A stretch of 64,000 bases of DNA from Pseudalkalibacillus berkeleyi (GTDB taxonomy: Bacteria > Bacillota > Bacilli > Bacillales > Fictibacillaceae). How positions within the stretch are numbered: position 1 is the first letter of the stretch; each line of letters opens with the position of its first letter. The stretch spans positions 1,736,001 to 1,800,000 of the forward strand of contig NZ_JAKIJS010000001.1 of the NCBI RefSeq assembly GCF_021608225.1. The letters are read 5' to 3'. Shown here one piece after another: positions 5,939-24,946 of this stretch. Both the position numbers and the translations under genes were made by a program. The notes under the pieces are model-generated. The model was given only the letters and a program-made list of their open reading frames with translations, was not told where the DNA came from and did not search any database.

Positions 5939-7204
5939 TTATACATTTGATCCGTTTTCGTTCGAAAGTATTAACTCGTTGTTTTCATCCTTGTTTTCAA
6001 ATTTTATTTTCCGTACACAGAAATAAATTAAAGAATGCCCAATCCCAACAATCGGTAGTAAATATGGAATACTTGTCTTTTCATCAAAAATTGTGATGGC
6101 AATAATGAATAAACAGATCGAAGTTATTCTCCCATAGTTTAAATACAATTCTCTAACAACAATATACTCTATCCGCATTTCCCTTGCTTTCCAACTACGA
6201 CCAATCACATCATACGTTAACGAAACGTAAGGAACGAGAAGTATTGGGTATGCGATTGAGATGATCACACCATAAGTAATGAGCTTCGCAAAGGTTAGTT
6301 CGAAAAGAATTAAACTTAATGCAGCGTACAAAATGATGCCACCAAATAATATTGCTTTTTTTCTGTGCTCTGACTTAATAAATCTCGTTGCAACATAATA
6401 GGCTAAAAACGAAACGGCAGAATTAATCAATCCAAACGTTCCTAATGCCAATTCACTATTAGTCGTGATAAATACCCAAACGACGATAACAAATAAAAAG
6501 GTTCCTTCCCTAAGTCCTTGAAAATAATGGGCATACAAAATACCTTTCCAATTTGCATTTCGCTTTCGTTCTTTTATAATTCTTACAAAAGAATAAACCC
6601 CTTCAGCAGATCTACGATTTAGCATAAAGCTCATGATCACAGCTGCAAAGAATAACGTTAGTGAGATTGCAAAGATGGTCTTATAACCGACCAACTTATC
6701 CATTCTTGTTATGATCCAACCAGCTAAAAATGGTCCTACCATCCCGGCAAATGAGGTTAATAACCCAAGAAATCCGTTAAAAAAATCTCTCGTATCAGGC
6801 TCAGTAATTTCAAAGGTCAACACATTAAACGCAAGCCAGTAAAACCCCATACCGATGCCCAGCAGTGCTCCAAGTAAAATTAAAAATTGTTCTGCATGAA
6901 CGCCAAGTAACAATACGGTCAGATAAAAGACCGCTAAACTGATTACGCCAAGCCTAAGCACGATAACGCGATCAATTCTTTTCGCTAATCGACCTGCAAT
7001 AATAAAGGTTATCGGTTGAAAGATCACGATAGACAGATTGTAAATGGCAATATCGATGAATTTACCCGATTGTTTCCATAGAAACACATTAACAAAGGTA
7101 TTAGACAAAGCTATGCTGAGTGCATATAGTCCACCTATGATTAAAAGCATTAAGAGGTCTTTCGTTATTTCAATGTTTCCGATCATCTTTTTCAATGCAT
7201 TCAT
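5939..7204 (-). CDS. yqgE: MFS transporter, YqgE-like
   Basis: Twelve-segment major facilitator family protein of ~421 residues with unknown substrate. Hydrophobic segments alternate along the whole length, and a charged loop (residues ~205-220, KERKRNANWKG) sits at the middle, as in MFS proteins. The tail is charged and cytoplasmic. Two adjacent ATGs occur; the second (7204) has better spacing (7 nt) from GGGGAG. In B. subtilis yqgE lies between sodA and pbpA; here two giant genes intervene. Function is not recognisable beyond the family. Confidence 0.8.
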   Translation of the reverse strand: MNALKKMIGNIEITKDLLMLLIIGGLYALSIALSNTFVNVFLWKQSGKFIDIAIYNLSIVIFQPITFIIAGRLAKRIDRVIVLRLGVISLAVFYLTVLLLGVHAEQFLILLGALLGIGMGFYWLAFNVLTFEITEPDTRDFFNGFLGLLTSFAGMVGPFLAGWIITRMDKLVGYKTIFAISLTLFFAAVIMSFMLNRRSAEGVYSFVRIIKERKRNANWKGILYAHYFQGLREGTFLFVIVVWVFITTNSELALGTFGLINSAVSFLAYYVATRFIKSEHRKKAILFGGIILYAALSLILFELTFAKLITYGVIISIAYPILLVPYVSLTYDVIGRSWKAREMRIEYIVVRELYLNYGRITSICLFIIAITIFDEKTSIPYLLPIVGIGHSLIYFCVRKIKFENKDENNELILSNENGSNV

Positions 7205-7373
7205 CATTTGTCTCCCCTTTACTCAATTCTAGTTTTCCTTAAAGCCTTCTCACTATTCCATAAGTATTTAGATCATCATCAAATACTCGTCCGACAAAGT
7301 GAGATCAAATTGAGCAAAGCCTATACACACCAACAAATAGATTCACCACATCAGCAAGAAATTTCTGTTACAA

Positions 7374-7464: not shown

Positions 7465-10400
7465 TTAACTTACTGGGACTAATTTATAGCATTTCATATC
7501 GACTAAAAGTATTTTTGTTTCATTTGATCTATTTTTGTAAGAGAAGGTAGCACAACATGTTTTCTCATCTTCACAAAGTAAAGTGAAGATCGTTGCTTTT
7601 GTACCTCCATTGATTGATATTGGTTCACCTGTTTTACAATCGATTAATATATATTGATTTGGTCCCACAGGCGTTGGTCCATTTCCATCTAGAGCATAAT
7701 CCCTTGTTAATGTTTCACCTTGATTTAAGAAAATCGGATCCACAACCGTTTCATATCCTGTTGCAGAAACGAGAACCGTATACTCACCTTCAGCCAACCC
7801 AGTGATGGAGTAACGTCCATCCGGATTAGTTGTACCCTCTGCTACTATCTCATTGTTTCTTCTTAGCGCTATCGTTGCACCACTGATTGCATCACCTGAG
7901 TTAGCATCAAATACAGTTCCTTCAAGAGTAGCTGGATCAATGACCCCTAGAACAAAGTTTATTGTTAAGTTGCTGTTTGGTGGTACGTCCACTACTTTTA
8001 CATCTGGCTTAAACCCTGGTAGTGATGCAATGAAGGTTAGAGTCTCCCCAGGTATAGAACCAATTACATATTCACCCTCTCTACTTGTGACGCCAAGGTT
8101 CAAAAGTAATCCGTCTGCATTGTATACCCTCACACTAACGTCATTTAGAGGATTTCCTTTTGTATCGGTTACATTCCCACGGACAGTGGATGGATCACTG
8201 GTCAACAAGAAATTAATGGTTGTCGATTCTCCTGCTATAATCCTTAATTCCTTAGCTTCTGAATCACACCCCAAAGCAAGTGCCCGGATTGAATAGGTTC
8301 CTGGAGCAAGGCTTGTGATCAAATAATTACCTGTTTCATCAGTAAGCGTATTGGCTGTGATCACACCATTTTCATCCGTAACGATGATCGATACACCAGA
8401 GACAAACTTATCTGTTCTTCCGTCTTTCACACGTCCATTTACTGATCCCGTATCTCTAGTTAATGCAAAGTTAACAATTTCAGTTTGAAGAGGTTCCGCT
8501 GTAAAGTTTTTCGCATCAGATTGATACGTTTCACTTTTAACCGTAACAGTATACTCACCTGGATCAAATCCTTGGAACATATACTTTCCAGATGTATCTG
8601 TTTGTGTTCGTTGAAGAATCGTTCCACTTGATGCAATAAGCCTTACGACCACGTTTCTAATCCCTAACCCAGTTACAGCATCTGTCACTTGACCCTTTAC
8701 ACTAGACGGAAGTGGAAATAGCCCGAGGTTTTGTACTGTAGTTTGGTTAGGGAAAATTTGAATCGATGCTTGATCACTCCCCAAACCACCTCCATAAGCT
8801 AAAACCGTATAGATTGCAGGCGTCAATCCTTCGAACAAATATTCACCATTATTGTTCGTTATAGTGGAAGCTAGCAGTTCTCCATCTGGACTTAACCACC
8901 TTAACTGAACGATAGCCCCCGAAACAGCTTCCCCTGTCACTTGGTTGGTTACAATACCGCTCAAACTACCTGTGACAGGTGTTAATTCAAAGTTTAAAGT
9001 GGTTCTTTCATCACTGGTTACAATTGCCCCAGCAATCTTTGTTCCATAATCAGGATGACTGCTTGCCAGTTCATATACACCAGGACCTAAATCCATTACT
9101 AAATAACGACCATCTGCTTGCGAAAGTACAGTTACAAGTGTAGATTCATCTCCTCCAAGTACTTGCACCACGGCATCGGAAATCGGTTCTCCAGTTTCCT
9201 GATCCGTAATTACTCCTTCAATACTTCCAGGATTTGGTGTTAACCGAATAACCCGTTCAACAGTTTCATTCGGTTCAACCATGATGGTTACTGACTTTGT
9301 TCCGAATCCTTCTCTCGAAACCATTACAGATAAGGTTCCCGTTGGAAGGTTGTCGACATTGAAACGACCATCCTCGTTCGAAATACTCGTGGTTAATAAT
9401 TTGTTGGCCGCGTCTTTTATATTGATTGAAGCTCCCGCAATTCCTACCAATGTGTCCATATTAATGACCTGACCAATCAAGTTGCCCGATTCTCGGAAAA
9501 GGGTAATGTCCAATTCCTCCGTACCTCCACCAACAACAGTAACGGGAACTACTTTTGATTGGAATCCTTCAGCACTTATACTGATGAGATATTGACCAGG
9601 ACTCAAACTCAAGAAACTGAACTCGCTTTGTGGCGAAGCGATAGTGGATTGTAAGAGCAATCCCTGCTGGTCAAGTAACCTTACGCCAATTACTAAACCT
9701 TGAAGTCTGTTACCTTCTTCGTCCCTAAGGATACCGAATACTGAACCAGCAGATCTTGATAAAGTGATATTGACATTGGTCAATTCACCAGTTTTAACAA
9801 TTCCTCCTGCTGTTTGTTTGGCATATTCATTTTTCGTGACAGATACCGTATAGCTCCCAGCTGCCAATCGGTCGACAAAATAGTTGCCTAACGTATTCGT
9901 CGCTGTCGTCGCAATTACCAATCCATTCGTATCTAGGATGTTAACATTAGCACCTACTATTGGATCACCTGTCTCCCGATCGGTTACTTTACCGAAAATT
10001 GTTCCAGGGCTTACCCGAAGTACGAAATTTACCACCTTTATTTCATTTGCAACTAAAGTGACCCCTGATGATTGGGATGCAACATCTGGTGCGGCTACAC
10101 GAATTGAATACGTTCCTGGGCGTAGATTTCCAATCGAATAAAATCCTTCTGCGTTCACTGCACTTGTTCCGATTACTACACCATTACTATCAATGATCTT
10201 AATAACCGCATTCTTGAATGGAGTTCCATCAGTTCCCAGGACAGTCCCAGAAACACCTGATGATTCACTTATCAAGGAAAGATTTGTGGTCGTTGTTTGG
10301 TTTGCTAATACCGTACTACCAGTAGAATTTTCAGTGTACCCAACTGCGTTCACTACAATCGTATACGTACCAGGTACAAGTCCTGTAATTGTATACTCTC

Positions 10401-13400
10401 CTAATCCGTCCGTTAACGCCATTGCAATGGGCACAATATCCTGTGCTGAAAATACAAGGACCTCTGCTCCAACGAGTCTTGTTGCCGTTTCGGCGTCCGT
10501 TATCGTTCCGGATATTGAACCAGGATTAGGTTCTAAGCCGAAGTTTACAATCGTCGTTTCATCAGAGACAACCAATACACCAACCTCTTGCGTTTGGAAT
10601 TCAGAATTGCTGGTGACTATTCTGAACTGCAATGGGGCGAGTCCGGTAAATTGATAGAAACCATTTGCATCTGTATTTGTAGAAAACACCAAAATCCCAT
10701 CTACGTTAAAGATTTCTATTAGTATTCCTGATAATGGTGTGCCTGTATTTGAGTTAGAAATTGTACCTTCAATCGTACCTGGATTTGGTACCAATTTAAC
10801 ATCTACTGTCTCCGTTTGATTCGATTCTACAATGGTTGTCGCCTCTGCAGCTCCAAACCGATCGGCTGAAGCTACAATCGTATACGTACCAGGAGCTAAT
10901 GTCGCTACGGTGTATTCACCATTTGAGTCTGTTAATGTTGTCGCAACAATCGGACCACTTGGGGACAGCGAACGGACCGCAATTGTGGCTCCTATAATCG
11001 GGTCACCCGTATTGAAATTCGTAATTCGACCTTGAACGATTCCAGGCTCAGGAGAGAGTGCAAAACTAAGGGTTGTCGTTTCATTTGGTAAAATCGTAAA
11101 GCTCGCCGTCCTAGACGTATAATTATCAGCTGCTACAACCGCTGTGTAATCGCCTGGGCTTAACCCTTGGGTTAGAAACTGTCCAGAACCATCAGAAGTA
11201 ATCGTTGCAATTTGAGCGCCATTTTTATCAATTAGAATGACCGCCCCAGAAATCGCATTCCCTGTGTCTATATCTGAAATAAAACCTGTGAGGAAACCTA
11301 AACTTTCGGTTAATCCAATATTCGCAGTGGTTGTTTCGTTAGGTCCAACAACTGCTGTAACAGCATTTGCTCCAAAATCATCCGCAACGGCACTAATGTT
11401 CACTGTTCCAGGAGGTATGTTATTCGCCTCATACTCACCATTTATACCTGAAATTGTTGTTGTAATTGGAATTCCTTCCGCAGTAGTGAATGTAAGAACG
11501 GCTCCGTTTATACCATCTGAAGTAGATGTGTTAAAAACTCTACCAGTAATCGTGCCCGGAAGTAACGAGAGTGGGATCGTAACCGTTTCTGTTTCATTCG
11601 CGATAACAGTAGCATTTACTGAATTTGCAGCAAAATTGGTAGCCGTAGCATTAATCAAATATTGACCAGGTTGTAGTCCTAGAATTGAGAATGTCCCATC
11701 ATTACTCGCAACAAGTGTTTGGAGAAGCGCTCCACTTTCATCAAATAATTTAATCCCTATATTATCACCGGTTATCGGATCTCCATTTTCATCAACAACT
11801 ATTCCGGCAATATCTCCAATCGTACTCGTCAGAGTGATGTTAGCTACAGAACTAAGGTTACTTACTACCATTACACCTACAAAGTTTGTTGAGAAATCTG
11901 GAGCTGTAGCGACAACTGTATAAGATGCCGGCGCAATTCCTTCAACAAGGTATTCACCGAATTCATTCGTTGTCGTCGATCTGATCTGGAGGTTATCCGC
12001 ATTACGTATGATGATGGTAGCACCTGAAATCGGATCCCCGTCTGTATCGATTATAGTCCCCACAATTGCACCAGGATCAGGTAGGAGGACGAAGTTTGCA
12101 TCCGTAACTGTTTCACCTGGTTCTAGTGTGACACCCCCTGTTGCCGTAGAGAAATCTTGCGCATTAACGACAATGGAAAATGATCCAGGAGGGAGGTTGC
12201 TTAATACATATTGACCATTTTGATCCGTTCCACCCGTATTCAAAATCGTACCATTCATATCTATTATTTGGATTGTCGCGTTCGTCACCGGTATGCCTGA
12301 AGGATCAGTAACAACACCGCTAACTTCCGCTGGATTAGGTTCCATTTCAAGTGTTACAGATGTTGTTTCATCCGATACAACTGAAGCTCCAACGGTTGAA
12401 GTCTGATAATTCGGTGCTGAAGCAGTCAGAATATATTGGCCTGGTTGTAGGTTATTAAATTGGAAATCCCCATTTGTATCTGCAAGCGTTGAAGCAATCG
12501 GAATACCGTCAGATGTACTTAAAGTAACTAAAGTATCATTAACGACTGGCGTGATCGATCCTGAGATTGTACCAGGATTGCTTACCAAGCTTTGATCAAC
12601 GACTGTTGTTTCATTTGATTGAACGATCGCACCTGTAGAACGTGATTGAAACCCTTCAGCGATTGATGTGACCGTATAGTTCCCTGGAGCTAAACCATTG
12701 AACTCGTAATTTCCATTCGTATCTGTCAAAACAGTGCCTACTATGAAGCCAGTATCATCGACAATAGTGATGGAAACATTCGGTAGTGCGTTCCCGCTCG
12801 TATCGGTAATCGTCCCTATAATTGCCCCAGGTTCTGGAGTCAATGTGACATTGACCTCAGTCACTTCGCCGGGTAATAGCTTTGCAGTTGCTGAGTTCGT
12901 TTGAAAATCTGGTGCACTGGCAAGGATTCCATACGTTCCTGGCTCAAGATTGTTCACTTCATACTGACCGTTTAAATCTGTAAATGTCGACGTCACGACA
13001 TTTCCAAATGAATCAACAATTTTGACCTCAATCATTGTGTCAGTTATTGGTAACCCTGTATCAGCATTAATAATTGTTCCTGTGACACTGGCTGGATTTG
13101 CAACTAATGTGAAGTCCGTTATCGTGGTCTGTCCAGATTGGATGATTGCACCTTTTCGTTGACTCTGAAAATCCTCAGCTTGTGCGAGAACTGAATAGTC
13201 TCCAGGAGCTAATCCAAGCGCTGTATAATTCCCTTGATTATTCGTCACAACTTGAATGATATTCGCACCTGTCCTTAGGTCCTTAATTGTGATGACCGCA
13301 CCTTGAATGGGATCGCCTGATGAAGTACTTACTGTACCAGTCAAGATACCTGGGTTAGGGGTTAAAGTGACATTGGCAGTGGTGATTTCATTCGCTAGTA

Positions 13401-15681
13401 CCGATGCGCCAACGGTTTCCGTTCCAAAATTCTCTTTAGAAACACTTACTGTGTAGGCTCCAGGTGTTAGGTTGTTGATCGTATAGCTTCCATTGCCACC
13501 TGTTGAGGTTGATGCGATGAGTATATTATTTGAGAAAATTTCTACCAATGCACCAGATATAGGATTTGAACCTGTGTCTGTTACTGTACCGGAAATCGCA
13601 CCTACAAGTTGATCCAATGCTACATTCAAGGTCGTCGTTTGATTGGGTTCAATTTTTGTGCCAATATTTTTAGATCCATAACCTTCCGCGATGAATGTGA
13701 CAGTATAAGAACCAGGCGCTAATCTTGTGAACGTGTAGTCCCCACTTGCATCTGTTATCGTCGTACCAACCGTGACTCCATTTCCATTCGTTACTTGTAC
13801 TGTTGTATTGGGTAGTGGATCACCTGTCTCAGAATCTGTAACTTTACCAGTTAATGTACCAGGATTAGGTTTCAATTCGACATTAAGTGTTTCTGTCTCT
13901 CCCGCCGATAAATTAAATCCAAGTACTTCTGTCATGAAGAGTTCTTTACTGACTCTCAGTTTATAATCACCTGGAGCAAGATCATCCACGACATACTCCC
14001 CTGAAGCATTTGTTGTCGTTTGGGTGACCACTGAATCTGCAGTATTCAATATTTCTACAAGTGCGCCACTAATGAGCGAACCTTCTGAAGTTACAACACC
14101 TTGAACTGTACCCGGATTTGGCTCTAGGACGAAGTTAACCGTTGAGGCATCATTCGCTTCTACTTTTACACCTTTTGTAGCTGATTGAAAGTTTGTAGCC
14201 GTTACCGTAATAGAATACTGCCCGGGTCTTACAGATGGAAACGAATATGCTCCAGTAGGATCTGTGGTCGTGTCAGCTACAACATTTCCAGCTGTATCAA
14301 CTAATCTTACAGTGGCATTATTAATTGCTCCGCCACCAGAGTTCGTAACTGTACCATTGATACTTCCTGGCAACTCTGTCAAAAAGGCATCTTTCCTAGT
14401 AATTTCACCTGATAAAATCGTAACAGATTGTATATTTGTAATGTAATCTATCTTGGAATATTCGATCGTATAGGTTCCTGGCGCTATGCCAGTAAGACTG
14501 TATTCTCCATTTAAATTGGTTGTTGTCGTCGCTATGGTTGTTGCTCCATCTTTCAACTCAACATTGACATCTGATAGAGGGAATCCAGTTGTATGATCTT
14601 TTACAATCCCAACAACTCCACCGTTAGCAACAACATTCACATTAGTTATTACTGTGTCAGGGCGTAATGCTTTCCCAGTTTCACCGTCCGTTCCATTAAC
14701 AGTGGCAGTTTCTAAAGTTCTTTCACCTGCTGTGTTAAAAAATCCACTCATTTCAAAATCTAAGACAGCAGTTGCACCTGGTGCTAGTTTCCCAATCTCC
14801 CAACTTAGCGTTTTCGTTTGTTGGTTGAATGTTGGGTGACCTATTGAGGAACTTATAATTGAAAATGTGTTGAGAATATCGAATGAAATAACATCCTTCA
14901 GACTTACAGTCGTTGCTTTGCTTTTCCCCGTATTTTCAACGATCAATCGAGCTGTATATTCTGCTTCCGTACCTGCAGAAACGGATGTAGGGCCGCTTAA
15001 GATGATTTTTCTTAAATCGAGTTTCGCTCTAACATCTGTATCATCTGGAGAAATGGGATCTGAAAAAGCATTTGAAAATTGAAATCCTTCACTCGTACGC
15101 AAAGAGTCTTTATTGTAATTATTAGAGTTCGTAGAAGTAAATGAAATCAACTGCAAAGGTGTATCTACATTAATACCCAGAAAGTCGAATAGAACACTAG
15201 CTGGAATGAAGAAGTCTAAAAACACATTATCATTGTTACCAAATCGTGTATTAGCAGGTATCACTCTAGCAATATCGAAATTAATAATCGGTTTTGAATA
15301 ATTGGGAGCACCTCTACCATTGGTACCTTCCGCTGGGTCGTTCCATGAGTTAACCTCTTGAATTGTATTTTCTATTAAATTGAGTCGGCCACTATTTCCG
15401 TCAACCGATAACATCCATTGGTAGGTGCCAGGTGCCCCGCCTGTATTGAATAGAACCCCCCACGCAAAATTTCGGAAGCCCGTTTTTTGGTTGTTCCTTG
15501 GGTCAGCTTGTAATCGTAATCGAAAATAGACATTCGTCCCATCATATGCCATTGAAAAGGATGGATTCGACTGGTTACCTACGAGGTCTACTGATGTAGG
15601 CGATTCATCTCCTGTCACATCGAAATAAAATCCCGATCCTAATGGTATCGATGTATATTCATTATCATTTGGAAAAGTCAC
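7465..15681 (-). CDS. Giant multi-repeat protein A: N-terminal domain, DUF11-like domain, 27 carboxypeptidase-regulatory-like repeats, Cys-rich tail
   Basis: 2738 residues, no signal peptide, membrane segment, LPXTG or SLH motif. Residues ~1-225 form a β-rich domain of unknown family (possibly DOMON/CBM9-like), ~225-350 a DUF11-like domain (GPTSVSAGTEAEYTARLIVE). Then come 27 tandem units of ~85 residues with the pattern G-x-I-x-G-x-V-x-D...TG-P-I-x-G-A...T-d-x-x-G-x-Y...L-x-P-G-x-Y...L-x-P-n-P, i.e. carboxypeptidase regulatory-like β-sandwiches. The last ~65 residues hold five cysteines (DCKTG, LLCEDEKTCC, DMKCY). The start is GTG at 15681, 5 nt after AAAGGAGGAGG. It is the tandem paralogue of the next gene. 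Function is unknown; an extended fibre or adhesin, perhaps on the spore, is inferred. Confidence 0.85.
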   Translation of the reverse strand: MTFPNDNEYTSIPLGSGFYFDVTGDESPTSVDLVGNQSNPSFSMAYDGTNVYFRLRLQADPRNNQKTGFRNFAWGVLFNTGGAPGTYQWMLSVDGNSGRLNLIENTIQEVNSWNDPAEGTNGRGAPNYSKPIINFDIARVIPANTRFGNNDNVFLDFFIPASVLFDFLGINVDTPLQLISFTSTNSNNYNKDSLRTSEGFQFSNAFSDPISPDDTDVRAKLDLRKIILSGPTSVSAGTEAEYTARLIVENTGKSKATTVSLKDVISFDILNTFSIISSSIGHPTFNQQTKTLSWEIGKLAPGATAVLDFEMSGFFNTAGERTLETATVNGTDGETGKALRPDTVITNVNVVANGGVVGIVKDHTTGFPLSDVNVELKDGATTIATTTTNLNGEYSLTGIAPGTYTIEYSKIDYITNIQSVTILSGEITRKDAFLTELPGSINGTVTNSGGGAINNATVRLVDTAGNVVADTTTDPTGAYSFPSVRPGQYSITVTATNFQSATKGVKVEANDASTVNFVLEPNPGTVQGVVTSEGSLISGALVEILNTADSVVTQTTTNASGEYVVDDLAPGDYKLRVSKELFMTEVLGFNLSAGETETLNVELKPNPGTLTGKVTDSETGDPLPNTTVQVTNGNGVTVGTTITDASGDYTFTRLAPGSYTVTFIAEGYGSKNIGTKIEPNQTTTLNVALDQLVGAISGTVTDTGSNPISGALVEIFSNNILIASTSTGGNGSYTINNLTPGAYTVSVSKENFGTETVGASVLANEITTANVTLTPNPGILTGTVSTSSGDPIQGAVITIKDLRTGANIIQVVTNNQGNYTALGLAPGDYSVLAQAEDFQSQRKGAIIQSGQTTITDFTLVANPASVTGTIINADTGLPITDTMIEVKIVDSFGNVVTSTFTDLNGQYEVNNLEPGTYGILASAPDFQTNSATAKLLPGEVTEVNVTLTPEPGAIIGTITDTSGNALPNVSITIVDDTGFIVGTVLTDTNGNYEFNGLAPGNYTVTSIAEGFQSRSTGAIVQSNETTVVDQSLVSNPGTISGSITPVVNDTLVTLSTSDGIPIASTLADTNGDFQFNNLQPGQYILTASAPNYQTSTVGASVVSDETTSVTLEMEPNPAEVSGVVTDPSGIPVTNATIQIIDMNGTILNTGGTDQNGQYVLSNLPPGSFSIVVNAQDFSTATGGVTLEPGETVTDANFVLLPDPGAIVGTIIDTDGDPISGATIIIRNADNLQIRSTTTNEFGEYLVEGIAPASYTVVATAPDFSTNFVGVMVVSNLSSVANITLTSTIGDIAGIVVDENGDPITGDNIGIKLFDESGALLQTLVASNDGTFSILGLQPGQYLINATATNFAANSVNATVIANETETVTIPLSLLPGTITGRVFNTSTSDGINGAVLTFTTAEGIPITTTISGINGEYEANNIPPGTVNISAVADDFGANAVTAVVGPNETTTANIGLTESLGFLTGFISDIDTGNAISGAVILIDKNGAQIATITSDGSGQFLTQGLSPGDYTAVVAADNYTSRTASFTILPNETTTLSFALSPEPGIVQGRITNFNTGDPIIGATIAVRSLSPSGPIVATTLTDSNGEYTVATLAPGTYTIVASADRFGAAEATTIVESNQTETVDVKLVPNPGTIEGTISNSNTGTPLSGILIEIFNVDGILVFSTNTDANGFYQFTGLAPLQFRIVTSNSEFQTQEVGVLVVSDETTIVNFGLEPNPGSISGTITDAETATRLVGAEVLVFSAQDIVPIAMALTDGLGEYTITGLVPGTYTIVVNAVGYTENSTGSTVLANQTTTTNLSLISESSGVSGTVLGTDGTPFKNAVIKIIDSNGVVIGTSAVNAEGFYSIGNLRPGTYSIRVAAPDVASQSSGVTLVANEIKVVNFVLRVSPGTIFGKVTDRETGDPIVGANVNILDTNGLVIATTATNTLGNYFVDRLAAGSYTVSVTKNEYAKQTAGGIVKTGELTNVNITLSRSAGSVFGILRDEEGNRLQGLVIGVRLLDQQGLLLQSTIASPQSEFSFLSLSPGQYLISISAEGFQSKVVPVTVVGGGTEELDITLFRESGNLIGQVINMDTLVGIAGASINIKDAANKLLTTSISNEDGRFNVDNLPTGTLSVMVSREGFGTKSVTIMVEPNETVERVIRLTPNPGSIEGVITDQETGEPISDAVVQVLGGDESTLVTVLSQADGRYLVMDLGPGVYELASSHPDYGTKIAGAIVTSDERTTLNFELTPVTGSLSGIVTNQVTGEAVSGAIVQLRWLSPDGELLASTITNNNGEYLFEGLTPAIYTVLAYGGGLGSDQASIQIFPNQTTVQNLGLFPLPSSVKGQVTDAVTGLGIRNVVVRLIASSGTILQRTQTDTSGKYMFQGFDPGEYTVTVKSETYQSDAKNFTAEPLQTEIVNFALTRDTGSVNGRVKDGRTDKFVSGVSIIVTDENGVITANTLTDETGNYLITSLAPGTYSIRALALGCDSEAKELRIIAGESTTINFLLTSDPSTVRGNVTDTKGNPLNDVSVRVYNADGLLLNLGVTSREGEYVIGSIPGETLTFIASLPGFKPDVKVVDVPPNSNLTINFVLGVIDPATLEGTVFDANSGDAISGATIALRRNNEIVAEGTTNPDGRYSITGLAEGEYTVLVSATGYETVVDPIFLNQGETLTRDYALDGNGPTPVGPNQYILIDCKTGEPISINGGTKATIFTLLCEDEKTCCATFSYKNRSNETKILLVDMKCYKLVPVS

Positions 15682-15707
15682 TTTTCCTCCTCCTTTATAT
15701 TCACTCC

Positions 15708-15780
15708 TTATAGTTGTATGTCCTATTAAGTCGAAGGTGTTGGTTGCAAGTCCTAATCATCTATAAAAATCCATATATGA
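15708..15780 (-). promoter_or_regulatory. Conserved upstream region of giant gene A with 33-bp-phased direct repeat
   Basis: Minus strand reads TCATATATGG (15780-15771), TAGGACTTGCAACCA (15755-15741), then TAGGACATACAACTATAA (15725-15708). The two TAGGAC-T-CAAC units start 33 bp apart. The same blocks with the same spacing stand before giant gene B. A conserved ACC lies 16 bp before CATACAACTA, close to the σK form AC-N16/17-CATA-N3-TA but with one extra base in the -10. Mother-cell expression in late sporulation is inferred. Confidence 0.5.
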
Positions 15781-15900
15781 CCATAAGCGAACAAGCCCTT
15801 TTTGCATTAATAAAGTAGAACGTACAGTAGTCCCGAATCCGTATTTCACTTTGAGAAAGTTAAGTGAGTAGTTAAACAACTTAGTCCATGTATCTGAGGC

Positions 15901-15935
15901 AAAAAAAAAAAACGAAGGGATCACTCCCATCGTTT
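15901..15935 (-). terminator. Terminator of giant gene B
   Basis: Minus strand: AAACGATGGGA, 4-nt loop, TCCCTTCGTTT and a run of 12 T. It lies directly after the stop of giant gene B, so the two giant genes are separate transcription units. Confidence 0.9.
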
Positions 15936-15943
15936 TAAAGAAA

Positions 15944-18900
15944 CTAATTTACTGGCACAAGCCTAAAACATTCTATACAGACTAGAAGAATTCTAATTTC
16001 ACCTCTTCTACTCTTATAGGAGAAGGTGCCACAACCCGTTTTCTCATCTACACAAAGTAATGTGAAAACAGTTGGTTTTGTACTTCCATCTAACATGAGA
16101 GGTTTACCGGTCTTACAATCAAACAATAAATATTGATTGGGTCTTACTGGTGTTGGAGGGGCAGTTTCTTCTAATGCGTAATTCTTTGTCAAAGTTTCTC
16201 CTTGGTCCAAGAAGATCGGATCAACAGCTGTCTCATAACCTTCCGCGGATACTAAAACTGTATACTCCCCTTCTGCTAATTCATTGATGGAATAACGTCC
16301 ATTCGTGTCTGTTAAGCCCTCTGCTACTATTACGTTATTTCTTCTAATCGCAATTGTCGCACCACTAATTCCATCACCTGTAGCTGCATCTGTAACAGTC
16401 CCTTGTAGTGAACCAGGATCACTGACGCCTAGAACAAAATTAATGATAAGATTACTATTCGGTGGTACGTCCACCACTTTTGTCTCTGGCGCAAACCCTG
16501 GTAAAGAAGCAGTAAAGGTCAATGTTTCCCCAGGAAGATAACCAATTACATATTCCCCCTCTCTACTTGTCACTCCCAAGTTCACAAGCAATCCATCAAC
16601 ATTGTATACTCTGATACTGACGTCATTAAGAGGATTTCCTTTTGTATCAGTTACATTCCCTCTGACAGTTGCAGGATCTGGGGTTAATAAGAAGTTAATG
16701 ATCGTTGTCTCTCCTGCAACGATGGTCATTCGCTTTGCATCTGAATCGCAACCTTCAGCTAGCGCTCTTATAGAATAAGTTCCAGGAGCTAGCCCTTTAA
16801 TCAAGTAATTTCCATTTTGATCAGTGAGGGTGTTCGCAATGAGAACTTCATTTTCATCTAACACAATGATGGAGACGCCGGAGACAAACGATTGCGTTGT
16901 TTCATCTTTCACTTTACCTGTAACAGATCCAAATGCACTTTCCAATTCAAAGTTTAGAATTTGTGTCCCGAGCGGTTCTGCTGTAAAGCTTTTGGCAAAG
17001 GATCCGTAATTTTCATTTCTCACAGCCACTGTATAATCCCCTGGGTCAAACCCCTGAATCATATAATTTCCAGAAGAGTCTGTCTCTGTCCGTTGAACAA
17101 TCGTACCACTTGAAGCGATGAGCCTGACAAACGTATGCTGTATTGGCATACCTGTATCGGCATCAGTTATCCGTCCTTTAACAGTGGAAGGTAGAGGAAA
17201 GATGCCAAGATTTTGTACAGTCCTTTGATTTGGACGAACTGTAATAGAAGCAATGTCGCTCCCAAAGCCGCCACCATATGCTACTACCGTATAAATAGCT
17301 GGTGTCAAACCCTCAAATAAATACTCGCCTTTTTCATTCGTCAAAGTCGAAGCAAGTTGCTCTCCATCTGGACTTAACCACCTCAATAGAACGTTAACAC
17401 CTGGTACCCTTTCTCCAGTCACCTGATTCGTTACAACTCCACTTAAACTTCCTGGGTCCAAAGGCAGCCTGAAGTCCAGTGTCGTCTTTTCATCACTTAC
17501 TACGATTGCTCCAGCAATCTTCGTTCCATAATTCTGACGGCTTACAGCTAATTCATACACACCAGGAGTCAAGTTCGTTAGAAGATACTTACCATCAGGT
17601 TGGGTCATGACAGTACTAAACAACGTAACGTCACCATTGAACAGTTGCACATTAGCACTTGAAATCGGCTGACCTGTACCCTCTTCTGTTACCGTACCTT
17701 CAATACTCCCTGGGTTCGGAGTCAGTCGAATAGTCGCTGCTACTGTTTCATTCGATTCAACCATAATACTTACAGACTTTGTTCCGAAACCTACCCTTGA
17801 GGCTGTTATAAATAAAGAACCTATAGGGAGGTTTTCAGCATTGAAGTTTCCATCCTCATTTGAAGTACTAGTCGTTACAAGATTGTTCGCTGAATCTTTC
17901 ACAATGATGGTTGCCCCTGCAATTCCAACTTCTGTGGATTCGTTCAATACTCGACCAATAACTTTTCCTGATTCCCTGAATAGGGTGATATCTAGTTCCT
18001 CTGTCTCTCCTCCAACTAGAGTCACGGGTACAACTTTGGTTTGGAATCCTTCTGCATTTATACTGATCAGGTATTGGCCGGGACTCAAGTTAAGAAAACT
18101 GAAATCACTATTTGGTGAAGCGACTATTGATTGTAAGAGTAGACCCTTGTTGTCAAGTAACCTGATTCCGGTCACTATTGATTCTAGCCTGTTTCCATCC
18201 TTATCCCGTAAAATACCGAATATCGATGCCATAGACTTAGATAAAGTTATATTGACATTTGTCAATTCGCCAGTATTAACGATTGCCCCTTTCGTTTGCT
18301 TAGCATAAGAGCTTTTTGTTACCGAAACTGTATAACTTCCTGCTGCCAATCGGTCGACAAAATAGTTGCCTAACGTATTCGTCGCTGTCGTCGCAATTAC
18401 CAATCCATTCGTATCCAGGATATTGACATTTGCTCCCACGATTGGTTCTCCAGTTGTCTGATCGGTAACTTTCCCAAATATCGTCCCAGGACTTACCCGA
18501 AGAACAAAATTCACTTCTCTCACTTCATTTGCTACTAAACTGATACCTGAAGATTGAGATGCAATATCTGGTGCAGCGACACGTATCGAGTACGTCCCTG
18601 GACTCAACCCACCAATTGAATAAAATCCATTAGCGTTCACTGCACTTGTACCAACAACTACTCCATTACTATCAATGATCTTAATAACCGCATTCTTAAA
18701 TGGTTTTCCGTCAGTACCAAGGACAGTCCCAGAAACGCCAGCAGACTCACTTATCAAGGATAAATTCGTGGTCGTTGTTTCGTTCGCTAATACCGTACTA
18801 CCAGTAGAATTTTCAGTATATCCAACTGCATTCACTACAATCGTATACGTACCAGGTACGAGTCCAGTTATTGTGTACTGTCCTAACCCGTCCGTTAGCG

Positions 18901-21900
18901 CTCTTGCAATGGGTACGATGTCTTGTGCTGAAAATACAAGGACCTCTGCACCAACGAGTCTTGTTGCCGTTTCGGCGTCTGTTATCGTCCCAGATATTGA
19001 ACCAGGATTAGGTTCTAAACCGAAGTTTACAATCGTCGTTTCATCAGAGACAACCAATACACCTACTTCTTCTGTTTGGAATTCTGGATTACTAGTCACA
19101 ACTCTAAATTGCAACGGGGGAAGCCCTGTAAATTGATAGAAACCATTTGCATCTGTATTTGTAGAAAACACCAAAATCCCATCTACGTTAAAGATTTCTA
19201 CTAGTATTCCTGATAATGGTGTGCCTGTATTCGAGTTAGAAATCGTCCCTTCGATTGCTCCTGGGTTAGGCACCAATTTAACATCTACTGTCTCCGTTTG
19301 ATTCGATTCTACAATGGTTGTCGCCTCTGCAGCTCCGAATCGGTTGGCTGATGCAACAATCGTATACGTACCAGGAGCTAATGTTGCTACGTTGTATTCC
19401 CCATTTGCACCCGTTATTGTAGTCGCAACAATTGGACCACTTGGGGACAACGAACGGACCGCAATTGTCGCTCCTATAATTGGATCCCCCGTATTGAAAT
19501 TCGTAATTCGACCTTGAACGATTCCAGGCTCAGGAGAGAGTGCAAAACTAAGGGTTGTCGTTTTATTTGGTAAAATCGTAAAGCTCGCCGTCCGAGACGT
19601 ATAATTATCAGCAGCTACAACCGCTGTGTAATCGCCTGGACTCAACCCTTGGGTTAAAAACTGTCCTGATCCATTAGACGTAATCGTTGCAATTTGAGCG
19701 CCATTTTTATCAATCAGAAGTACCGCCCCAGAAATCGCATTCCCTGTATTAATATCTGTAATATAACCTGTGAGAAAACCTAGACTTTCAGTCAATCCAA
19801 TATTCGCAGTGGTCGTTTCGTTAGGTCCCACAACCGCCGTGACAGCGTTAGCTCCGAAATCTTCTGCAACTGCGCTGATGTTGACAGTACCTGGTGGAAT
19901 GTTATTAGCTGTATAATCACCGTTCATACCGGTAATGGTGGTCGCGATTGGAATTCCTTCCGTGGTCGTGAGCGTAAGAACAGCTCCGCTTATACCATTT
20001 AATGTTGAGGTATTGAATACTCTTCCAGTTATCGTTCCTGGTAATAAGGATAGCGGTATCGTAATCGTTTCTGTTTCATTCGCAATAACAGTGACATACA
20101 CAGAATTAGCAGCATAGTTCGTAGCTCTAGCATTGATCAAATATTGACCAGGTTGTAGACCTAAAACTGAGAAGGTACCATCTACATTCGCAACAAGTGT
20201 TTGCAGAAGTGCACCACTATTATCAAAGATCTTAATGCCTGTATTGTCACCTGTAATCGGGTCACCATTTTCATCTACAACTGTACCCACAATATCTCCT
20301 ATCGTACTCGTCAATATAATGTTAGCTATAGAACTAAGGTTACTACTTACCATTACACCGACAAAATTTGTAGAGAAATCTGGTGCAGTAGCCACTACTG
20401 TATATGACGCTGGTGCAATTCCCTCAACAAGATATTCACCGAATTCATTCGTTGTCGTCGATCTAATTTGAAGGTTATCGGCAGTACGTATGATAATCGT
20501 TGCGCCTGAAATAGGGTCGCCGTCTGTATCGATAATGGTACCAACAATTGACCCAGGATCTGGTAGGAGGACGAAGTTTGCATCCGTAACTGTTTCACCT
20601 GGTTCTAATGTGACTCCTCCAGTTGCAGAAGAAAAGTCTTGTGCATTCACGACAATTGTAAATGAACCTGGAGGGAGATTACTTATCACATATTGCCCAC
20701 TTTGGTCCGATCCACCTGTCTGCAATACTGTTCCATTTTCATCTAAAACTTGAATTGTCGCATTCGTTATTGGTGAACCCGAATTATCAGTTATAAATCC
20801 GCTTACTTCTGCTGGATTTGGAATCATCGTAAGTGTAGCTGATGTTGTTTGATCAGATACAACAGTAGTTCCAACGGTAGAGGTTTGATAGTTTGGTGCT
20901 GAAGCAGTCAATATGAATTGTCCTGGTTGGAGGTTATTAAATTGGAAGTTCCCATTTGTATTTGTCAATGTAGAAGCAATTGGGATGCCATCAGAAGTAC
21001 TTAATGTAATTAAAGTATCCTCAACAACCGGACTGACCGTTCCTGAGATGGAGCCCGGATTACTAACCAAGCTTTGATCAACGACTGTGGTTTCATTGGA
21101 TTGGACAATTGCTCCTGTTGATAATGATTGAAAGCCTGCAGCAATGGATGTGATGGTATAGTTCCCTGGAGCCAGTCCGTTGAATACGTAGTTTCCATTC
21201 GTATCTGTCAAAACAGTGCCTACTATGAAGCCTGTATCATCGACAATGGTGATGGATACATTTGATAGCGGGTTCCCACCTGTGTCAGTAATCGTGCCGA
21301 TTATGGTACCTGGTTCCGGCGTTAAAGTCACATTTACATTTGTTAATTGGCCAGGTAGAAGTTTTACTGATGCGGAGTTCGTTTGGAAATTCGGCGCACT
21401 GGCAAGAATTCCATATATTCCTGGCATGAGGTTATTGACCTCATATTGTCCATTTAAATCTGTAAATGTAGATGTCACAACATTCCCGAATGTATCAACA
21501 ATTTTCACTTCGATCATGAGGTCTGTGATTGGTAATCCTGTAGTTGCGTTTATGATTGTACCTGTGACACTTGCAGGATTTGCAACTAATGTGAAGTCCG
21601 TTATCGTCGTTTGACCGGATTGGATGATTGCTCCTTTTCGTTGACTCTGGAAATCCTCAGCTTGCGCGAAGACAGAATAGTCTCCAGGAGCCAAACCAAG
21701 TGCTGTGTAATCCCCTTGATTATTCGTCACGACTTGAGTGATATTCGCACCTGTCCTTAGATCTTTAATTGTGATGACCGCACCTTGAATGGGATCGCCT
21801 GATGAAGTACTTACTGTACCAGTCAAGATACCTGGATTAGGGGTTAAAGTGACATTTGCAGTGGTGATTTCGTTCGCTAATACCGATGCGCCAACGGTTT

Positions 21901-24163
21901 CCGTTCCAAAATTCTCTTTAGAAACACTTACTGTATAGGCTCCAGGTGTGAGGTTATTGATAATATAGCTTCCATTGCCATCTGTTGAGGTTGATGCGAT
22001 GAGTATATGATTTGAGAAAATCTCTACCAAGGCACCAGATATAGGATTGGTACCTGTGTCGGTAACTGTACCAGAAACCGCTCCAACGAGTTGCTTCATT
22101 TCAACATTCAATGTAGTTGTTTGATTGGATTGTATTTTAGCACCTATAGATTGTGAACCATAACCTATCGCAATAAATGTAACAGTATAGGAACCAGGCG
22201 CTAATCTTGTGAGTGTATAGTCTCCGTTTATGTCTGTCATTGTTGTACCAACTGTGACTCCAGTTCCATTCGTTACTTGTACTGTTGTATTGGATAGTGG
22301 ATCACCTGTCTCAGAATCTGTAACTTTACCAGTCAGTGTTCCAGGATTAGGTTTCAATTCTACATTAAGTGTTTCTGTCTCTCCAGCTGATAAATTAAAT
22401 CCAAGTACTTCTGTCATGAAGAGTTCTTTACTGACTCTCAGTTTATAATCACCTGGAGCTAGATCATCCACGACATATTCTCCTGAAGCATTTGTTGTCG
22501 TTTGGGTGACCACTGAATCTGCAGTATTCAATATTTCTACAAGAGCGCCACTAATGAGCGAACCTTCTGAAGTAACTACACCTTGCACTGTACCGGGATT
22601 TGGTTCTAATACGAAATTAACAATAGATGTATTATTCGCGGTAACTTTAACGCCTTTAGTTGCAGATTGGAAGTTAGTTGCAGTCACTTGGATTGAATAC
22701 TGTCCTGCACTTATAGAAGGAAAAGAGTATGAACCCGCAATGTTGGTAGTTGTATCATCAACAATATTTCCAGAGGTGTCTACTAACAGGACAGTTGCAT
22801 TATTAATTGCTCCGCCACCAGAGTTCGTAACGGTACCATTTATACTTCCTGTTAGTTCAGTTAGGAAAACATCTTTTCGCGTGATGACCCCAGAGGTGAT
22901 TGAAACACTCTGAATGTTGGTAAGATAATTCACTTTTGAATATTCAATCGTATAGGACCCAGGTGGTATACCTGTAAGGGTGTATTTACCATTTGTATTT
23001 GTAGTAGTTGTCGCAATCGTCGTTGCACCATCTTTCAATTCAACAACGACTCCTGAAAGCGGGAACCCAGTCGATTGATCGTTCACGATCCCTACGACTC
23101 CACCATTTGCAACAACATTAATCTTGGTAGTTATAGAATCTGGACGTAAAGCTTTCCCAGTTTCACCGTCCGTTCCATTAACAGTGGCAGTTTCTAAAGT
23201 TCTTTCACCTGCTGTGTTAAAAAAACCACTCATTTCAAAATCTAAGACAGCGGTTGCACCTGGTGCTAGTTTCCCAATCTCCCAACTAAGCGTTTTCGTT
23301 TGATGATTGAAAGTTGGATGTCCCGTTGAAGTATTTGTGATAGAAAAAGTATTGAGTATATCAAACTGTATAACATCCTTTAAACTTACAGTCGTTGCAT
23401 TGCTTCTTCCCTTATTTTCAACGATTAATCGTGCTGTATATTCTGCTTCAGTACCAGCCGATACAGATGTAGGTCCACTTAATAAGACTTTTCTTAAATC
23501 CAATTTCGCCCTTACATCAGTATCTTCAATGGAAATCGGATCAGAAAACGCATCCTCGAACTGAAAGCCTTCACTTACACGCAAGGAGTCTCTATTATAT
23601 CTGTTAGAGTTCGTAGCCGTAAACGACACTAATTGCAATGGTGTTTCTTCTGTAATGTTCAAGAAGTCGAATAAAATTTTGGCGGGAATGAAGAAGTCTA
23701 GAAATACATTATCATCGTTCCCAAATCTTGTATTTGTGGGAGTCACTCTCGCAACATCGAAATTGATGATTGGTGTTGAGTAATTCGGTGCCCCTCTTCC
23801 GTTCGTTCCTTCAGCTCGGTCATTCCATGAGTTCACCTTTTCAATCGTGTTTTGAATAAGGTTCACCTGTTCTTTTCTTCCATCCACATTAAGCATCCAT
23901 TGGTAAGTACCTGCTTGACCGCCTGTATTAAAAAGAACTCCCCATGCATTATTCCTGAAACCTGTTTTTTGTCTATTTCTAGGATCTTCTCGCAATCGTA
24001 ATCGGAAATATACATTCGTTCCATCATAGGCCATTAAAAACGACGGATTCGACTGATCTCCAACTAAGTCCACCCTTTTGGGGGATATATCACCTGTAAC
24101 ATCAAAATAGAACCCCGCACCTAATGGTATCGAGGTATATTGAACATCATTTGGAAAAGTCAA
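15944..24163 (-). CDS. Giant multi-repeat protein B, paralogue of protein A
   Basis: 2739 residues with the same layout as protein A: N-terminal β-rich domain, DUF11-like domain, 27 carboxypeptidase-regulatory-like repeats in the same order, and a five-Cys tail (DCKTG, LLCVDEKTGC, VCIECF). The start is taken as TTG at 24163: AAAGGAGGAGG lies just before it and LTFPND aligns with MTFPND of protein A. A frame extended to a GTG at 24187 would put the ribosome site inside the gene. Identity with A is uneven: repeat 3 is identical at protein level, the last repeats differ clearly. No export signal is seen. Function is unknown. Confidence 0.85.
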   Translation of the reverse strand: MTFPNDVQYTSIPLGAGFYFDVTGDISPKRVDLVGDQSNPSFLMAYDGTNVYFRLRLREDPRNRQKTGFRNNAWGVLFNTGGQAGTYQWMLNVDGRKEQVNLIQNTIEKVNSWNDRAEGTNGRGAPNYSTPIINFDVARVTPTNTRFGNDDNVFLDFFIPAKILFDFLNITEETPLQLVSFTATNSNRYNRDSLRVSEGFQFEDAFSDPISIEDTDVRAKLDLRKVLLSGPTSVSAGTEAEYTARLIVENKGRSNATTVSLKDVIQFDILNTFSITNTSTGHPTFNHQTKTLSWEIGKLAPGATAVLDFEMSGFFNTAGERTLETATVNGTDGETGKALRPDSITTKINVVANGGVVGIVNDQSTGFPLSGVVVELKDGATTIATTTTNTNGKYTLTGIPPGSYTIEYSKVNYLTNIQSVSITSGVITRKDVFLTELTGSINGTVTNSGGGAINNATVLLVDTSGNIVDDTTTNIAGSYSFPSISAGQYSIQVTATNFQSATKGVKVTANNTSIVNFVLEPNPGTVQGVVTSEGSLISGALVEILNTADSVVTQTTTNASGEYVVDDLAPGDYKLRVSKELFMTEVLGFNLSAGETETLNVELKPNPGTLTGKVTDSETGDPLSNTTVQVTNGTGVTVGTTMTDINGDYTLTRLAPGSYTVTFIAIGYGSQSIGAKIQSNQTTTLNVEMKQLVGAVSGTVTDTGTNPISGALVEIFSNHILIASTSTDGNGSYIINNLTPGAYTVSVSKENFGTETVGASVLANEITTANVTLTPNPGILTGTVSTSSGDPIQGAVITIKDLRTGANITQVVTNNQGDYTALGLAPGDYSVFAQAEDFQSQRKGAIIQSGQTTITDFTLVANPASVTGTIINATTGLPITDLMIEVKIVDTFGNVVTSTFTDLNGQYEVNNLMPGIYGILASAPNFQTNSASVKLLPGQLTNVNVTLTPEPGTIIGTITDTGGNPLSNVSITIVDDTGFIVGTVLTDTNGNYVFNGLAPGNYTITSIAAGFQSLSTGAIVQSNETTVVDQSLVSNPGSISGTVSPVVEDTLITLSTSDGIPIASTLTNTNGNFQFNNLQPGQFILTASAPNYQTSTVGTTVVSDQTTSATLTMIPNPAEVSGFITDNSGSPITNATIQVLDENGTVLQTGGSDQSGQYVISNLPPGSFTIVVNAQDFSSATGGVTLEPGETVTDANFVLLPDPGSIVGTIIDTDGDPISGATIIIRTADNLQIRSTTTNEFGEYLVEGIAPASYTVVATAPDFSTNFVGVMVSSNLSSIANIILTSTIGDIVGTVVDENGDPITGDNTGIKIFDNSGALLQTLVANVDGTFSVLGLQPGQYLINARATNYAANSVYVTVIANETETITIPLSLLPGTITGRVFNTSTLNGISGAVLTLTTTEGIPIATTITGMNGDYTANNIPPGTVNISAVAEDFGANAVTAVVGPNETTTANIGLTESLGFLTGYITDINTGNAISGAVLLIDKNGAQIATITSNGSGQFLTQGLSPGDYTAVVAADNYTSRTASFTILPNKTTTLSFALSPEPGIVQGRITNFNTGDPIIGATIAVRSLSPSGPIVATTITGANGEYNVATLAPGTYTIVASANRFGAAEATTIVESNQTETVDVKLVPNPGAIEGTISNSNTGTPLSGILVEIFNVDGILVFSTNTDANGFYQFTGLPPLQFRVVTSNPEFQTEEVGVLVVSDETTIVNFGLEPNPGSISGTITDAETATRLVGAEVLVFSAQDIVPIARALTDGLGQYTITGLVPGTYTIVVNAVGYTENSTGSTVLANETTTTNLSLISESAGVSGTVLGTDGKPFKNAVIKIIDSNGVVVGTSAVNANGFYSIGGLSPGTYSIRVAAPDIASQSSGISLVANEVREVNFVLRVSPGTIFGKVTDQTTGEPIVGANVNILDTNGLVIATTATNTLGNYFVDRLAAGSYTVSVTKSSYAKQTKGAIVNTGELTNVNITLSKSMASIFGILRDKDGNRLESIVTGIRLLDNKGLLLQSIVASPNSDFSFLNLSPGQYLISINAEGFQTKVVPVTLVGGETEELDITLFRESGKVIGRVLNESTEVGIAGATIIVKDSANNLVTTSTSNEDGNFNAENLPIGSLFITASRVGFGTKSVSIMVESNETVAATIRLTPNPGSIEGTVTEEGTGQPISSANVQLFNGDVTLFSTVMTQPDGKYLLTNLTPGVYELAVSRQNYGTKIAGAIVVSDEKTTLDFRLPLDPGSLSGVVTNQVTGERVPGVNVLLRWLSPDGEQLASTLTNEKGEYLFEGLTPAIYTVVAYGGGFGSDIASITVRPNQRTVQNLGIFPLPSTVKGRITDADTGMPIQHTFVRLIASSGTIVQRTETDSSGNYMIQGFDPGDYTVAVRNENYGSFAKSFTAEPLGTQILNFELESAFGSVTGKVKDETTQSFVSGVSIIVLDENEVLIANTLTDQNGNYLIKGLAPGTYSIRALAEGCDSDAKRMTIVAGETTIINFLLTPDPATVRGNVTDTKGNPLNDVSIRVYNVDGLLVNLGVTSREGEYVIGYLPGETLTFTASLPGFAPETKVVDVPPNSNLIINFVLGVSDPGSLQGTVTDAATGDGISGATIAIRRNNVIVAEGLTDTNGRYSINELAEGEYTVLVSAEGYETAVDPIFLDQGETLTKNYALEETAPPTPVRPNQYLLFDCKTGKPLMLDGSTKPTVFTLLCVDEKTGCGTFSYKSRRGEIRILLVCIECFRLVPVN

Positions 24164-24190
24164 ACTTTCCTCCTCCTTTATAGTCACTAC

Positions 24191-24263
24191 TTATAGTTGT
24201 ATGTCCTACAGTAATAGAGGTGTTAGTTGCATGTCCTAACTATTCAATAAATTCCATATATGA
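24191..24263 (-). promoter_or_regulatory. Conserved upstream region of giant gene B
   Basis: Same elements as before gene A: TCATATATGG (24263-24254), TAGGACATGCAACTA (24238-24224) and TAGGACATACAACTATAA (24208-24191), with 33 bp between the repeat starts. The ACC to CATACAACTA distance is again 16 bp. Flanking bases have diverged while these blocks have not, suggesting function. The σK reading is inference. Confidence 0.5.
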
Positions 24264-24334: not shown

Positions 24335-24946
24335 TTATTTAGCTTCGTTATAACGCTTTTCAACTTCATCCCAGTTAACCACATTCCAGAATGCTGAAAT
24401 GTAATCAGGACGACGGTTTTGATAGTTCAGGTAATAAGCGTGCTCCCAAACGTCAAGTCCAAGGATAGGTGTTTTACCTTCCATTAACGGAGTGTCTTGG
24501 TTTGGCGTACTTGTAATTTCAAGTTCACCATTGTTCACAACTAGCCAAGCCCAACCAGAGCCAAATCGACCAGCTGCTGCTGCAGCGAAGTCTTCTTTAA
24601 ATTGGTCATAGCTACCAAACTTAGAGTTGATTTTGTCAGCTAATTCACCTGTAGGAGCTCCTCCACCATTCGGGCTAAGTACTTGCCAGAACAATGTGTG
24701 ATTGGCATGTCCTCCACCATTGTTACGGACAGCTGTGCGAATGTTCTCAGGTACAGCATCTAAATTGCTTACTAACGCTTCGATGCTTTTATCTTGTAAA
24801 TCCGCGTGCCCTTCAAGTGCACCATTAAGCTTTGTTACATATGCATTATGATGCTTACCGTGGTGGATTTTCATCGTTTCTTCGTCAATGTGTGGTTCAA
24901 GTGCGTTGAACTCATACGGAAGTGCAGGTAGTTCGTGTTTTGCCAA
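24335..24946 (-). CDS. sodA: Superoxide dismutase, Mn/Fe family
   Basis: Converts superoxide to hydrogen peroxide and oxygen in the cytoplasm. All four metal ligands are present: His28, His83, Asp165 and His169 (in DVWEHAYYL). The sequence has the Mn-type GGGHANH and GSGWAWLV segments. Length 203 is normal. The start is TTG at 24946, the only start well spaced from AGGAGGAG. It is monocistronic, with its own σA promoter and terminator. In B. subtilis sodA also sits beside yqgC and yqgE. Confidence 0.97.

Follow-up and report, generated by a model that had tools for sequence, protein, structure and literature searches.

The window analysed here, a 64,000-nucleotide stretch of Pseudalkalibacillus berkeleyi DNA (contig NZ_JAKIJS010000001.1), contains two adjacent giant genes on the minus strand: gene A (15944-24163), which encodes 2739 amino acids from a TTG start, and gene B (7465-15681), which encodes 2738 amino acids from a GTG start. 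Pfam searches, a hidden Markov model (HMM) derived from the repeats of gene A and an alignment of the two genes confirmed the organization described in an earlier note on this DNA, in which an N-terminal domain is followed by a DUF11 domain, 27 repeats and a Cys-rich tail. In gene A, the N-terminal domain spans residues 1-216 (23516-24163) and the DUF11 domain approximately residues 217-353 (23105-23515; Pfam E=9.8e-11). The transthyretin-like CarboxypepD_reg repeats (16181-23104) have a median spacing of 86 amino acids, and the tail (15947-16153) is homologous to small CotY/CotZ-like Cys-rich proteins. The equivalent parts of gene B, likewise on the minus strand, are an N-terminal domain recognized by its conservation with relatives (15034-15681), a DUF11-type domain aligned with that of gene A (14623-15033), repeats detected by Pfam and the own-repeat HMM (7699-14622) and the same tail domain (7468-7677). 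Pfam and the HMM each count 27 repeats per gene. The tails are about 70 residues long, and five cysteines lie within the last 57 residues of each.

No Pfam model matches residues 1-216 of gene A up to E=10. Structure prediction, which the earlier note had proposed as a check, gave this domain a CBM9/DOMON-like fold, and by predicted fold it would belong with such domains; 28 alignment columns are invariant over 34 sequences from many genera. For the tail, a PDB sequence search returned nothing and the best Foldseek matches of its model were to the repeat domain, so that its fold was not identified. Glycine makes up approximately 10% of the residues and is scattered across the CarboxypepD_reg repeats; a Gly-X-Y collagen tract is absent. 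The repeats of both genes are old, to judge from their sequences, because the units of gene A share a mean pairwise identity of only 31.5% (at most 47%) and Tandem Repeats Finder reports no DNA-level tandem repeats in gene A or gene B.

Genes A and B are 83.3% identical, with a single gap in the alignment. The ratio of nonsynonymous to synonymous divergence (Ka/Ks) is 0.105/0.922, or 0.11. Ks varies along the genes from 0.34 up to saturation, which suggests patchy gene conversion. The ribosome site preceding the TTG of gene A, AAAGGAGG, recurs identically before the GTG of gene B. The open reading frame (ORF) caller placed the gene A start at a GTG at 24187, 8 codons upstream of 24163; we set it at 24163 because both the ribosome site and the paralogue agree on that position.

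Relatives and repeat number

The N-terminal domain is carried by 11/34 genomes of the family and 34/397 genomes of the order, in open frames of up to 7162 amino acids; the order positives include three weaker matches (G067, G075 and G048). This patchy carriage supports the earlier description of the genes as accessory. A scan by pattern, with each species represented by one genome, recovered 55 loci, from Alkalihalobacillus/Pseudalkalibacillus, Fictibacillus, Rossellomorea, Bacillus, Metabacillus, Priestia, Thalassobacillus, Halobacillus, Sediminibacillus, Ectobacillus, Scopulibacillus, Brevibacillus and Paenibacillus, together with a single short contig assigned to a cyanobacterial bin. The named genera are all known as spore formers. 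The exceptional contig (L132, 6.9 kb, binned as Moorena) encodes a giant homologue and is probably misbinned Bacilli DNA, since the protein is Bacilli-like and the bin has no spoIVA match. The search for homologues and their taxonomic limits that the earlier note had proposed therefore named relatives from spore-forming genera, bar this one probably misbinned contig. In a sample of the phylum, 4/398 genomes were positive: the window's own genome, G569, G708 and G750. The G708 and G750 genomes are incomplete (77% and 89%), and neither has a spoIVA match. G569 belongs to another class and carries spoIVA; its protein (L210) is a signal-less mini-version of 372 amino acids with one repeat and a Cys-rich end, and other Cys-rich genes adjoin it.

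The window's own genome encodes a third paralogue 0.4 Mb away (L035, G000:C1:1322331-1342330), a protein of 3431 amino acids with 35 repeats and the same N-terminal domain and tail. A further match on another contig (E=0.09), in a region that we take to be ksgA-yabG, was out of frame and was discarded.

Repeats were counted in 51 complete giants, comprising 45 of the 55 loci, the three giants of the window genome, G028a, G005 and G016, with duplicate entries for one genome counted once. Five loci with open ends were left out, as were the 5/55 in which the giant frame is broken or very short. There were 23 repeats in 15 giants, 18 in 11, 35 in 10, 27 in 9 and 21 in 3, with single genes of 30, 26 and 20 repeats. 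Between Rossellomorea and Metabacillus, whose units are 53-75% identical, 23/23 units pair at the same position. Among distant 27-repeat genes, the best partner of a unit lies at the same position for 13/27 units (gene A versus G006) and 18/27 units (versus G029). Repeat number is thus fixed by lineage at 27, 35, 23, 21 or 18. Because the repeats drift in sequence but keep their number, these comparisons suggest that fibre length is under selection. If each domain measures 3-4 nm, the figure assumed in the earlier note, 27 repeats would plausibly give a stalk of about 80-110 nm.

Cys-rich tails and spore-shell proteins

In the 55-locus scan, each of the 13 loci from Alkalihalobacillus, Pseudalkalibacillus and Fictibacillus ends in the tail domain of genes A and B, and so do the three giants of the window genome and G028a. 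With the profile of this domain, stand-alone Cys-rich proteins were also detected in six related genomes, including three (G003, G014 and G015) that have no giant. A profile of these small proteins matches small proteins or giant tails in 24/34 family genomes, and alignment of the tail and small-protein profiles with hhalign gave a probability of 98.6% (E=1.1e-15). The small proteins in turn resemble the PF10612 family, which comprises CotY, CotZ and ExsY: seven of them aligned with PF10612 members over their full length in global mode (probability 76.6%, E=2.6e-6, 0/60 shuffles as high), and a set of fourteen did so with E=2.1e-5 (0/50 shuffles). Compared with CotZ directly, the tail is collinear with the C-terminal half (probability 57.5%, E=1e-4, 0/60 shuffles as high). 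A C-x-C motif like that of CotZ is found near the N-terminus of most of the 14 aligned small proteins and is absent from the giant tails. Among the fetched loci, fabI lies within 1.5 kb at 14/23 small-protein loci and likewise at 19/30 PF10612 loci. The window genome itself has no PF10612 match at E<=1.

Two small Cys-rich ORFs of the window genome, of 92 and 96 amino acids, matched with E of about 1e-7 and 1e-6 in a local scan of 21 ORFs. Together with a 406-amino-acid protein bearing a BMQ_0737 domain, they flank a sugar cluster (L203, G000:C1:753500-773400). The cluster contains a sulfotransferase, ATP-sulfurylase, APS kinase, a sulfate-type transporter, UDP-GlcNAc 2-epimerase and glycosyltransferases, and from this gene content it looks like a locus for the synthesis of a sulphated spore glycan. 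In Scopulibacillus darangshiensis (L150, around 9071-10260), the only trace of a giant is a broken N-terminal-domain fragment, with a small CotY-like gene about 0.5 kb on its upstream side.

A parallel link to the spore surface is provided by NF052457, the NCBIfam model of the 'BMQ_0737 family morphogenetic spore coat protein' (cut-off 71 bits). BMQ_0737 is reported to be a spore protein of the outermost layer in B. megaterium (Priestia megaterium) (PMC4656864). In 13 loci from Rossellomorea, related Bacillus and Priestia abyssalis, the giant ends in a Cys-rich domain with a K-V/L-Y-D-W motif. The only one of these tails run alone against NCBIfam (L112) matched NF052457 with E=2.3e-17 and 63.8 bits, just under the cut-off. 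Elsewhere the related domain is encoded by a separate gene downstream of the giant, in Metabacillus (2), Sediminibacillus and Thalassobacillus. The Thalassobacillus protein passes the cut-off (E=7.6e-59, 199.2 bits), and the 13 tails align with the four downstream proteins at a probability of 97.3% (hhalign, E=2.1e-11). Three of the downstream genes lie about 44, 121 and 498 bases from the giant; at the fourth locus, L122, a stop breaks the frame of the giant, and the gene lies 5.2 kb away from it. NF052457 is present in 34/34 family genomes, and the window giants themselves do not match it. By fusion and by adjacency, the giants are thus tied to spore-shell proteins.

Protein starts and upstream regions

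Neither a signal peptide nor a sorting motif is seen in giants A and B; an LPxTG-type end is absent, and both tails end in the Cys domain. Residue 1 already belongs to the block conserved among relatives (M-x-F-P or close variants, with P4 invariant), which bears out the earlier statement that both proteins lack a signal peptide. Hydropathy is less discriminating. Over the 55 loci, the most hydrophobic 11-residue stretch within the first 45 residues scored 0.32 to 1.94, as against 2.75 and 1.66 for two Sec-type control starts, and 8/55 loci scored above 1.5, overlapping the weaker control. These higher scores arise from a TPVLVGG-type stretch inside the folded N-terminal domain, which is interrupted by glycines and a proline. 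Because of the overlap, the statement that no signal is present rests on the conserved start. At four loci (L105, L109, L114 and L119), an in-frame hydrophobic stretch occurs 9 to 30 codons upstream, within unconserved sequence. For the giants, we rejected a Sec-exported or sortase-anchored adhesin, as they have neither signal nor sorting motif.

The sigma-K-like -10 sequence CATANNNTA, the consensus used here for this sporulation factor, occurs in the -90 to -18 stretch of 11/58 giants versus 2/241 control genes. A first look with 160 bases had found it in 13/58, compared with a mean of 5.0 and a maximum of 12 in 200 single-base shuffles. Of ten other patterns tried on the same stretch, only CATA...AT fell below 0.05 (p=0.02). 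The p value of the enrichment is not strict, since the stretch was picked after the first look and the 58 upstream regions are related. The 35-repeat paralogue of the window genome has an exact CATANNNTA at -43. Upstream of genes A and B we found CATA-N4-TA, which exceeds the sigma-K -10 consensus by one base.

Inspection by eye placed this element in the minus-strand leader of gene A (24164-24260), which also holds the ribosome site and a block, common to gene B, with two GGAC..CAAC motifs. The leader of gene B (15682-15780, minus strand) has the same block as that 5' of gene A. The GGACATA motif of the window is missing upstream of the three shell-type genes of the same genome that were checked. 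Between genes B and A, near 15909-15935, a terminator-like hairpin with a T run was also noted by eye and is absent from the pattern-scan listing. The pair is flanked by a gene for a 422-amino-acid protein (5939-7207) on one side, which we take to be an MFS transporter as the earlier note did, and on the other by what is presumably sodA (24335-24946). Relatives of both flanking genes were found at L024 only among 67 related loci tested (~60 distinct, with limited flanks that are often short on one side). A 56-base unit is present in three tandem copies at 25109-25264, upstream of sodA.

A likely spore-surface stalk and its alternatives

The two giants of the window have the same domain order, lack a signal, have tails homologous to small Cys-rich proteins, belong to a group linked by fusion or genomic position to spore-coat proteins and have a repeat number that is fixed by lineage. 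On these sequence features, we consider it likely that they act as stalks on the spore surface, docked by the tail on a shell and carrying a sugar-binding head on a repeat stretch of fixed length. Synthesis would take place within the mother cell at a late stage of sporulation and involve no secretion. The Cys-rich domain at the C-terminus would then be built into, or dock on, the CotY/CotZ-like shell around the forespore, possibly by insertion into its lattice. The 27 transthyretin-like repeats would form the stalk, which may be visible as a fibre of set length. At its distal end, the CBM9/DOMON-like domain would act as a head that binds polysaccharide, either spore glycan or an environmental one, and that becomes exposed once the mother cell lyses. 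The earlier note had arrived at a spore-surface fibre mainly from the missing signal peptide; the homology of the tail to CotY/CotZ-like proteins and the fusion and adjacency with BMQ_0737-type proteins support it, as do the sigma-K -10 enrichment upstream of relatives and their occurrence in spore-forming genera.

Several observations weigh against this proposal. The link to CotZ is remote: hhalign gives moderate probabilities (57.5% with the tail and 75-77% with the small proteins), the Pfam model PF10612 matches none of 12 tails up to E=10, and the 92- and 96-amino-acid proteins of the window genome fall below threshold (E<=0.001) in the genome-wide search. No exact sigma-K or sigma-E site was found upstream of genes A and B, and the -35 AC is not enriched (1/58, shuffle mean 0.7). 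The spoIVA gene is present in 34/34 positive genomes of the order versus 382/397 overall (Fisher p=0.25); being so common, it has no discriminating power as a marker and is only consistent with a role in spores. Two remote relatives of the N-terminal domain have Sec-type starts. One, G028b (L034, G028:C1:601322-621321), is a frame of 2770 residues whose C-terminus is of the LPKTG type, possibly a cell-surface cousin of the giants; the other is the G708 protein, encoded by a genome that is 77% complete and lacks a spoIVA match. The heaviest objection is that all 11/11 complete Paenibacillus giants have 0 Cys in their last 90 residues and the Brevibacillus giants (3/3) have one or two, so the anchor in these genera is not this domain and must be another one or the N-terminal domain.

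This last option extends to an alternative for the whole group, in which the N-terminal domain is the spore-side anchor on spore polysaccharide and the Cys-rich C-terminus lies outermost or cross-links neighbouring fibres. The deep conservation of the N-terminal domain beside a lineage-variable C-terminus, the Paenibacillus and Brevibacillus proteins without a Cys-rich end, the carbohydrate-module-like predicted fold and the spore-type sugar cluster of the window genome would all suit this reversed orientation. However, the lineage-specific tails are themselves shell-protein-like, as expected of an anchor, and since searches with the N-terminal domain supplied the members, its presence in all of them is partly an effect of the search. 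We regard the reversal as rather unlikely. The Cys-rich ends and the shell-protein homology would equally be at home in a coat or inter-coat matrix protein, a flat, extensible, cross-linked layer inside the spore coat with no projecting fibre, and neither tip nor fibre has been seen. A fixed repeat number and a distinct globular end domain fit a stalk more naturally, and a matrix role seems to us unlikely.

Repeats of this type are usual in exported adhesins, and the Sec-type start and LPKTG-type end of G028b recall such proteins. A vegetative cell-surface adhesin using unconventional export is nevertheless very improbable, as the giants lack signal and anchor and their tails and neighbours are of spore-coat type. 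We give still less credence to intracellular or selfish repeat genes without a surface role: the patchy occurrence in the family and the broken or very short frames would fit, but the low Ka/Ks and the constant repeat number argue against this reading.

The proposed stalk proteins resemble several known systems in part. The BclA nap or ruffle likewise consists of spore-surface filaments, and BclA proteins are not known to carry a Sec signal either; their repeats are collagen-like, whereas those of the giants are transthyretin-like. SdrD and MSCRAMM B-repeats, like the giants, are strings of prealbumin-like domains that form a stalk. These adhesins are Sec-exported and sortase-anchored, features absent from the giants, and gene B scores 96.5 bits against the SdrD model, whose cut-off is 2500. 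An S-layer identity (Kustd1514 model) was rejected at about 510 bits against a cut-off of 1400, the repeats alone matching. Relative to CotY, CotZ and ExsY, crust or exosporium basal-layer proteins, the tail is collinear with the C-terminal half at profile level; in the giants, this domain terminates a repeat protein of 2.7-3.5 thousand residues, and the PF10612 model itself is unmatched. BMQ_0737 is C-terminal in the Rossellomorea-type giants or encoded downstream, and in the window genome it is the separate 406-amino-acid protein elsewhere.

The F-ENA anchors offer a precedent for holding a fibre by a shell-protein-like domain. The anchor of Clostridium aceticum combines DUF11 domains with a CsxA-like domain that is proposed to enter the lattice, and F-ENA ruffles measuring 85 nm and a stalk of 200 nm have been reported (PMC11952670). 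DUF11 domains and a shell-protein-like domain proposed to tether the fibre are thus found there and here, but F-ENA anchors, as that text presents them, hold a polymeric pilus of DUF4183 subunits, whereas the giants would combine anchor, stalk and head in one polypeptide. The subunit domains of S-, L- and F-ENA (DUF3992/DUF4183) have no Pfam match up to E=10 in the gene A N-terminal domain or 12 tails. Also in Clostridium, Cys-rich shells reportedly self-assemble inside the mother cell and bear appendages (PMC7333573). Because the defining features tested were not found, the giants are not filed under CotY/CotZ, BclA, ENA or MSCRAMM. No published description of them appears among the literature matches listed (titles and the starts of abstracts), a scope that most subscription papers fall outside and that leaves absence unproven.

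We see an even chance that the giants represent an undescribed, widespread class of spore fibres, each consisting of one polypeptide, that have their length set by a genetically fixed repeat number (18 to 35), need no secretion and attach through the lineage's own Cys-rich shell protein by fusion or co-operation. If so, they would be a new type of spore fibre, neither collagen-like nor a polymeric pilus, ranging from Bacillus relatives through Paenibacillus and Brevibacillus. The fixed repeat number would make fibre length testable by changing the repeat count. The swaps at the C-terminus, which may be CotY/CotZ-like, BMQ_0737-like, HYR plus Cys or almost nothing, would serve as a natural experiment on the anchoring of spore appendages. 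The proposal would also assign a function to the thousands of residues in each genome for which domain libraries otherwise offer no more than the label of regulatory-like repeats.
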